From: a virus
Reading direction: 5' to 3' (one strand)
Length of the DNA stretch: 23,691 bases
Virus record (IMG/VR): IMGVR_UViG_3300046808_000160
Coordinates: 1-23,691 of that record
The notes beneath the pieces are model-generated. The model was not told where the DNA came from, did not search any database, and saw only the letters and a list, made by a program, of their open reading frames with translations. Position numbers and translations under genes: made by a program. Positions 1 through 21,350 of this stretch are shown here, piece by piece. How positions within the stretch are numbered: the first letter of the stretch is position 1; every line of letters begins with the position of its first letter.

Positions 1-152
1 GGATAATTAACTAGCGTGTGAATAATACGAAGATTGATTGGTTTGCCTTGATAAAACACGCTGTAAATAGCGTCCGCTACAAGTACCTGTTCTGATTTAT
101 ACGTATGCTTGTTTACTGCTTCTAGCAGTACATCTGGTTTCGGTCTACTCAT
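1..152 (-). CDS. Small conserved phage protein, 3' end cut off by the window edge
   Basis: A reading frame starts at ATG 152-150 and stays open for 50 codons to the window edge, so only the N-terminal part is seen. It begins MSRPKPDVLLEAV and continues with the stretch KSEQVLVADAIYSVFYQGKP. From memory this resembles a short family of unknown function common in marine T4-like phages; I cannot assign an activity. The start is well supported by AGGAG in 5'-TAGGAGACATACACATG. A late-promoter-like GATAAATAC lies at 183-175, and the ribosome binding site sits in the loop of a 9-bp hairpin (150-175), so expression is probably late and controlled at translation. Confidence 0.75.
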   Translation of the reverse strand, partial: MSRPKPDVLLEAVNKHTYKSEQVLVADAIYSVFYQGKPINLRIIHTLVNY

Positions 153-175
153 GTGTATGTCTCCTAATACACATG
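150..175 (-). promoter_or_regulatory. Hairpin with the ribosome binding site in its loop and the start codon in its stem
   Basis: The minus-strand RNA reads CAUGUGUAU, then UAGGAGAC, then AUACACAUG. The 9-nt arms are perfectly complementary, the 8-nt loop holds the Shine-Dalgarno sequence AGGAG, and the last AUG of the 3' arm is the start codon of the gene at 1-152. The overlapping late promoter would start RNA at about position 170, inside the 5' arm. Late RNA would then lack most of that arm, while read-through RNA from upstream would carry the full hairpin. The inverted repeat is seen directly; the switching role is inferred. Confidence 0.7.
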
Positions 176-183
176 TATTTATC
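175..183 (-). promoter_or_regulatory. T4-type late promoter, GATAAATAC
   Basis: GATAAATAC on the minus strand matches the T4 late-promoter -10 element TATAAATA at seven of eight positions. It lies 23 bases before the start of the gene at 1-152 and in the only non-coding gap near it. The identical 9-mer precedes the gene at 20899-21246 (21282-21290). It would be read by RNA polymerase carrying a gp55-like late sigma factor, which is not encoded in this window. Confidence 0.65.
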
Positions 184-211
184 ATTTTTATTGAATTAAA
201 GTAGCTGTTAA

Positions 212-508
212 TTATAGTAAGTGGGATAGTTCTAGTTTAGTTTGTATTAGATCTGCCTGATCTTCAAATGTTAAGATAAGTGTCTGGTTTTCGTACCAGT
301 TAGGGCTATTATAATTCATATTTTTGTGCGGCGAAAACGTCCAACCCCATCTTCTGTCCCCGGTAATCTTATCTATTAATCCGATAAGATGCATAGGTAA
401 GGTATTGGTATGAGTCCGCCACTGATGCCTATAAATAATATTATAGCCGCAACCCTCTCTAGTCAATCCATTAACATGTTCAGTCGCTATCACCGAAACT
501 ACCACCAT
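212..508 (-). CDS. Hypothetical phage protein, about 93-98 aa
   Basis: This is a small frame with phage-like character and no family I recognise. The middle and C-terminal part is rich in aromatic residues (RRWGWTFSPHK, then SPNWYENQTL) and is probably a compact globular domain. The start is uncertain. ATG 508 overlaps the preceding gene by 29 bases and has no clear ribosome binding site. A GTG at 493 has GGTGGTAG just upstream and may be the true start, giving 93 residues. A 59-base gap with a late promoter follows it. Confidence 0.55.
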   Translation of the reverse strand: MVVVSVIATEHVNGLTREGCGYNIIYRHQWRTHTNTLPMHLIGLIDKITGDRRWGWTFSPHKNMNYNSPNWYENQTLILTFEDQADLIQTKLELSHLL

Positions 509-18412: not shown

Positions 18413-18628
18413 TCAAGTGTTTTGTGTGTTAATATTTATTTTAACATCGTTCATTATAACAGGATTCTGGTTTTTGTCAACTTCTATATAGTAAGAAGTT
18501 TTGAATCCTGGCATTTGATCAAAACTAATTTGTTCTAGAATATGACGATCTTTGATTCGGTTACCGTGTTCATCATATGCAACAAACTGATTGCCTGTTT
18601 GATGTACTTCTATTCTAATTTTGGGCAT
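18413..18628 (-). CDS. Hypothetical phage protein, 71 aa
   Basis: This small protein is beta-rich: MPKIRIEVHQTGNQFVAYDE is followed by RIKDRHILEQISFDQM and SYYIEVDKNQNPVIM. It looks like a compact all-beta domain. It overlaps the sulfotransferase gene by 14 bases and has AGGAA ten bases before its ATG. The dsbA promoter lies inside its 3' half. No family is recognised. Confidence 0.65.
   Translation of the reverse strand: MPKIRIEVHQTGNQFVAYDEHGNRIKDRHILEQISFDQMPGFKTSYYIEVDKNQNPVIMNDVKININTQNT
18433..18440 (-). promoter_or_regulatory. Possible late promoter of dsbA, AATAAATA
   Basis: AATAAATA on the minus strand matches TATAAATA at seven of eight positions and lies 28 bases before the dsbA start. 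It overlaps the last codons of the upstream gene. It is AT-rich and could be chance. Confidence 0.4.
18453..18480 (-). promoter_or_regulatory. Sigma70-type promoter of dsbA with perfect hexamers
   Basis: TTGACA (18480-18475), a 16-base spacer and TATAAT (18458-18453) lie 48 bases before the dsbA start, inside the 3' half of the preceding 71-aa gene. Both hexamers are perfect and the spacing is one base short of optimal. It would allow early dsbA and polymerase expression apart from the virion genes upstream. Confidence 0.75.
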
Positions 18629-20898: not shown

Positions 20899-21246
20899 TT
20901 ATTCGTCGTCTTTTCTAGCGGTGTTTTCAAACGCAGTCTTACCGTAGAATGCGGCAACAATTGCTGCTACTGACACGAAGTATGTTGGTGCCATATCACC
21001 TAATACACCTGCACCATTTTCCATGCTGAAGTATGAAGCGATAAGAACACATGCAGGGTATAGTAACATACCAAATAGTGCGAACCATGCCATCTTACGT
21101 TGGCTATCGCGCATTGCATCTTCATCTTCTAAACGCTTGCGTTTAAATTCCATGTCCATTTCAATCTCTAACTTAGAAATGTGTCCGTCGCCGTTTGTGT
21201 CCTTAGCTAAGACTTCATCGTCGACTGTTACTGTTTTTCTTGCCAT
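20899..21246 (-). CDS. Two-helix membrane protein with an N-terminal EF-hand loop, 115 aa
   Basis: Residues 16-27 (DTNGDGHISKLE) fit the calcium-binding EF-hand loop D-x-N-x-D-G-x-I-x-x-x-E at every key position. A charged helix (28-50) leads into two hydrophobic helices at about 53-73 (WFALFGMLLYPACVLIASYF) and 86-104 (MAPTYFVSVAAIVAAFYG), then a short basic/acidic tail. Size and topology suit a holin-like protein, but lysis function is not shown. Late promoter GATAAATAC lies 36 bases upstream and the ribosome binding site GGAAGGGAG is in the loop of a hairpin that buries the ATG. Both point to strictly late expression. Confidence 0.82.
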   Translation of the reverse strand: MARKTVTVDDEVLAKDTNGDGHISKLEIEMDMEFKRKRLEDEDAMRDSQRKMAWFALFGMLLYPACVLIASYFSMENGAGVLGDMAPTYFVSVAAIVAAFYGKTAFENTARKDDE

Positions 21247-21281: not shown

Positions 21282-21290
21282 GTATTTATC
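21282..21290 (-). promoter_or_regulatory. T4-type late promoter, GATAAATAC
   Basis: GATAAATAC on the minus strand matches TATAAATA at seven of eight positions and is identical to the element at 175-183. It stands between the terminator of the upstream gene and the hairpin leader of the EF-hand protein gene, the place expected of a promoter for the late genes at 20899 and below. Confidence 0.7.
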
Positions 21291-21303
21291 AGAAATGGAT
21301 AAT

Positions 21304-21333
21304 AAAAAAGCCCCAACTTAGTTGGGGCTTTTT
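21304..21333 (-). terminator. Rho-independent terminator
   Basis: AGCCCCAAC pairs with GTTGGGGCT around a 3-base loop, extended by A/T pairs on both sides, and is followed on the minus strand by TTTTTT. It lies 18 bases after the stop of the gene at 21351-22007 and ends that transcript. Because it also has a T run on the plus strand it could work in both directions, but no plus-strand gene is nearby. Confidence 0.9.
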
Positions 21334-21350
21334 AGTTAAAATTATTTTAA

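Follow-up and report, generated by a model that had tools for sequence, protein, structure and literature searches.

The stretch of DNA analysed here (the window) is a 23.7-kb virus fragment, which encodes a T4-type DNA polymerase and a 5'-3' exonuclease among its proteins; searches of solved structures and Pfam did not confirm a 251-aa window protein as a gp45-like clamp. Relatives of the window in the phage collection are jumbo phages, e.g. Sinorhizobium phage Phosso, PA5oct (gene EST35_0330), Atu_ph07 and Salicola phage SCTP-2. Positions 3-152 (minus strand) hold the 5' part (50 aa) of a conserved gene of about 100-105 aa, with the N-terminus MSRPKP, which is truncated by the window edge. 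No function was assigned to its protein by searches of Pfam, NCBIfam, PHROGs or solved structures. The spore protein family SspH matched 18 of the 37 protein family members tested, with a best E value of 0.0011 and below any curated cutoff, and this weakly supported match is a lead only. The upstream gene, in the same direction (212-508, minus strand), ends 28 nt before a T4-type late promoter box. No terminator-like site was listed on the minus strand between this gene and the box, and therefore read-through into the conserved gene is expected.

The box, GATAAATA (183-176, minus strand), directly adjoins a perfect 9-bp hairpin, and together with the first base of the hairpin it reads GATAAATAC (183-175). 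On the same strand, the hairpin comprises the 5' arm CATGTGTAT (175-167), an 8-nt loop TAGGAGAC (= UAGGAGAC; 166-159) and the 3' arm ATACACATG (158-150), the last three bases of which are the ATG start codon (152-150). The sequence and coordinates of promoter and hairpin given in the original prediction were found correct by sequence check and RNA folding. It had also placed both the AUG and the ribosome binding site in the hairpin; the AUG does lie in the 3' arm, but the Shine-Dalgarno AGGAG (165-161, minus strand) is in the loop and not in the stem, where it may stay partly reachable. Folding of a 46-nt stretch predicted the 9-bp stem at -9.9 kcal/mol (z = -2.97), and equally stable folds were obtained from 2 of 200 shuffles. 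As in the T4 e/49-type gate, the late box stands immediately upstream of the gene and the AUG is predicted to lie inside the stem, the pairing of which is conserved. The hairpin sequence occurs only once within the window. Taken alone, the window leader is modest, as 22 of 500 shuffled upstream sequences hid the start equally well, and the case therefore rests on comparison with relatives. The same holds for the box as a promoter, since the window has no excess of the motif (9 ATAAATA found, 10.4 expected). At 195-211 (minus strand), 11 nt upstream of the box, lies the element TTAACAGCTACTTTAAT (TTAA-spacer-TTTAAT), which is kept in 14 of 25 close relatives against a shuffled mean of 1.2, in most cases 10-11 nt ahead of the late box, and is possibly a second promoter. 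Two more late-box candidates (1200-1207 and 18433-18440, minus strand), which precede gene starts by 26-27 nt, have no hairpin gate.

For the comparison, one scan yielded at least 590 relatives of the gene, and the 80 best of these were retrieved; more came from two further scans. The set comprised 157 distinct leaders of the gene, with 139 leadered relatives. A TAAATA-type box was present in 151 of the 157 leaders and was GATAAATA in 114 of these. The occurrence of GATAAATA before genes was strongly biased in strand, with 224 on the same strand vs 26 on the opposite strand for all genes, and 52 vs 12 outside the hairpin-gene family. A box-abutting hairpin of at least 6 bp was found in 89 of the 139 leadered relatives, as compared to a mean of about 25 and a maximum of 37 in shuffles. 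Among 38 aligned leaders, which were selected for box-abutting hairpin geometry, 97.6% of cells were paired and 4 pairs had changed on both sides (0 of 500 shuffles); one stem position was G-C in 21, A-U in 13 and G-U in 4 of them. These alignments indicate that the hairpin pairing is preserved by compensatory changes in the arms, while the arm sequence is not. Conservation and covariation across relatives would speak against an AT-rich inverted repeat arising by chance, and both were found. A terminator-like site is listed on the opposite strand, which, along with the chance-level motif count in the window, had made either a chance repeat or an opposite-strand terminator conceivable. However, the long open reading frames here lie on the minus strand, which itself is not listed, and the stem of the plus-strand match contains 3 G-C pairs and its T run is poor, unlike the G-C-rich stem followed by a T run of an intrinsic terminator. 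We thus rejected chance repeat and terminator alike, as the least probable of the explanations considered.

The same alignments bear on a DNA operator. In T4, I-TevI represses its own late promoter through an operator that overlaps the promoter (PMC2988022). The inverted repeat described here overlaps the late promoter likewise, and could serve as the binding site of a dimeric, I-TevI-like repressor. Such an operator would show as a conserved binding sequence over the promoter, but the arms differ widely among relatives with the pairing kept, in part by G-U pairs, which are incompatible with a DNA palindrome, and in 22 leaders the arm is shifted upstream of or across the box. The operator was therefore considered highly improbable and rejected.

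Shuffle-based classification of all 157 leaders placed 86 in the class with the hairpin abutting the box and 22 in a class (geometry B), defined with a lenient threshold (p of up to 0.075, 40 shuffles), in which the complementary arm either precedes or spans the box. In 12 leaders the AUG is 5 to 8 nt from the box (at exactly 5 nt in 7), in 31 the gate is weak or absent and in 6 the box is absent. Three relatives, L018, L021 and L022, have neither late box nor hairpin, as if both had been lost together. On the protein tree, many forks of which are unresolved, gate types change repeatedly, with 30 changes for all groups vs 62 when shuffled. The variety of the leaders is also relevant to the idea that a RegA-, gp43- or RegB-like phage protein uses the hairpin as a translational operator or cleavage site, instead of the hairpin acting as a passive block. 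T4 does use such proteins (PMC3014915), and the window clade carries GGAG in the loop. Among relatives, however, the loop varies in length (4 to 24 nt) and in sequence, the Shine-Dalgarno of geometry B leaders is usually in the stem, and the leaderless forms lack a Shine-Dalgarno leader altogether, making recognition by such a protein very unlikely.

T4 late RNA begins about 6 nt after the box. A pyrimidine-purine step at nt 5/6 after the box was found in 47 of 60 non-redundant leaders, above every other position tested, and in two related genomes, 328 and 385 kb in size, 67% of the GATAAATA boxes have A at nt 6 after the box. In these two genomes (L326-L342 and L343-L362), ATG occurs at offset 5 after GATAAATA 26 times against a background of 3.5, a peak which predicts leaderless late mRNAs. 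Several genes with ATG at this distance resemble homing endonucleases by sequence. In the 7 leaders of our gene with the AUG exactly 5 nt past the box, the late RNA would likewise be leaderless. For the window, the pyrimidine-purine step (T171-G170) and the ATG peak in relatives put the predicted late start at 170 (minus strand), the 6th nt after the box. When the start was moved in silico, the hairpin was the predicted fold for starts up to 172 and was gone from 171 on; RNA from 170 would retain 4 of the 9 pairs, and the hairpin is not its predicted fold. The earlier expectation that late RNA starting near 170 would lack most of the 5' arm was thus supported by the predicted folding. A hairpin stabilising the 5' terminus of late mRNA would fit the location of the structure, with which the late unit begins. 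But the predicted late start, backed by two independent signatures, truncates the 5' arm, and geometry B leaders have this arm ahead of the box or spanning it. Hence, we rejected the stabiliser, the probability of which we consider minimal.

We determined the predicted block as the cost of freeing positions -13 to +4 of the start region in long (read-through) RNA, in late RNA and in long RNA with a shuffled upstream, where shuffling was confined to the sequence ahead of the late start. In the relatives, the opening cost was 8.9 kcal/mol for long RNA, 3.0 kcal/mol for late RNA and 5.3 kcal/mol for shuffled upstream, as compared to 5.0, 3.7 and 5.0, respectively, for control genes without box. 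The difference holds in the 60 non-redundant leaders (Wilcoxon p = 3e-9), and the start region pairs mainly with sequence at the predicted late start or upstream of it. The T4 genes e, 49 and I-TevII, used as positive controls, gave 13 to 17 for long and 0.4 to 4.4 for late RNA. This computation supports the original prediction, a timing control like that of T4 gene e, as the region upstream of the predicted late start is what hides the start codon across the 139 leadered relatives, and the three T4 genes show the same pattern. Outside the hairpin-gene family, 22% of other genes with the box (n=110) were above z = 2 vs 9% of controls. In the two related genomes, 20 of 94 box genes were switch-like vs 11 of 150 without box; most late-box genes there thus lack such a gate, and single calls can be wrong.

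The architecture of box and hairpin recurs in the window at 21290-21244 with different arms. Here the box GATAAATA (21283-21290, minus strand) is followed by the 5' arm TAATACCAA (21281-21273), a loop which holds the ribosome-binding site, and the 3' arm TTGGTATTA (21254-21246), which ends in the A of the ATG of a 115-aa gene (20899-21246, minus strand) with a weak EF-hand match below cutoff. This right copy alone is not significant (166 of 500 shuffles were as good). In the family of its gene, members with the box are more structured (8.0 long / 4.2 late) than those without (3.5 / 2.7). A terminator-like inverted repeat (AAAAAGCCCCAACT / AGTTGGGGCTTTTT) is present at 21300-21338, just upstream of the right-copy late box.

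Taken together, the conserved gene at the left edge is, with high probability, under a gate of the type of T4 genes 49 and e, which restricts translation to the late phase, as judged from sequence comparison and predicted folding. Read-through RNA from upstream genes would carry the entire hairpin, in which the stem encloses the AUG and a tight loop the Shine-Dalgarno, and we propose that ribosomes therefore initiate poorly on it. A gp55-type late sigma factor would bring RNA polymerase to GATAAATA, with RNA beginning near 170; such late RNA, devoid of most of the 5' arm, could not form the hairpin and would be translated. Since the first half of the hairpin would be cut off only with a start at the late promoter, the protein should appear only late in infection. 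For this gate, we infer where exactly late RNA starts, that read-through RNA exists, how strong the block is and why the protein must be late. Beyond the window, late-only translation of this gene may be a conserved trait of an entire lineage of giant T4-like phages, the device for which would have been swapped repeatedly between a box-abutting hairpin, an anti-Shine-Dalgarno arm that precedes or spans the promoter, and a leaderless AUG at the late start, an AUG that ribosomes on read-through RNA would miss; we hold this broader view tentatively, as a possibility that we do not yet favour.

In the reviews consulted, the T4 lysozyme-type gate is described for T4 and related phages. Sequence comparison suggests the same logic for a single conserved gene in more than a hundred relatives among giant phages, some of them isolates infecting Pseudomonas and Agrobacterium. 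The gate is a computable mark of genes that a phage must silence until late, and would mark one widespread, uncharacterised small protein as the product of such a late gene. Leaders of the relatives offer a natural test set for the way in which promoter position and RNA folding determine expression time. The leaderless class, if real, would be a simpler answer to the same timing problem.

T4 gp55 reads TATAAATA, and a gp55-like late sigma factor was detected in 11 of 13 related genomes. The jumbo phages CBB and GAP32 are reported to have the same ATAAATA late motif, along with a gp55-like sigma factor, and the available portion of their report describes no hairpin or translation gate (PMC5259590). 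No report of such a gate in jumbo phages was found in the literature searched (open-licence papers). The mechanism is already known, and this gene in giant T4-like phages is, on the predicted folding, a newly found case of it. In T4, helices that hide the ribosome binding site are described for e, soc, 49 and I-TevI; RNA of gene e from the late promoter lacks the 5' part of the helix and is translated, whereas the long RNA is silent (PMC3014915). Late RNA of I-TevI similarly lacks the 5' strand of its hairpin, and similar arrangements are reported for I-TevII, I-TevIII, segB and Aeh1 mobE (PMC2988022). I-TevI, these three genes and mobE are homing endonucleases, while the window gene is widely conserved and without assigned function. 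The original prediction had likened the layout to that of gene e, and the logic is indeed the same: the late promoter of gene e lies within the 5' half of a hairpin hiding the ribosome binding site, with 17.2 for long and 4.4 for late RNA in our calculation. However, gene e has its Shine-Dalgarno in the stem and two late promoters, as compared to a Shine-Dalgarno in the loop and one promoter in the window, and the geometry is nearer to that of T4 gene 49. In gene 49 (endonuclease VII), the box AATAAATA is followed at once by the hairpin, AAGG is in the loop and the 3' arm stands just before the AUG; the calculation gave 14.7 for long and 3.2 for late RNA. Although the gene product is unrelated, the arm sequence different and the phage only distantly related, the predicted layout of the window most closely resembles that of T4 gene 49 among the leaders compared.
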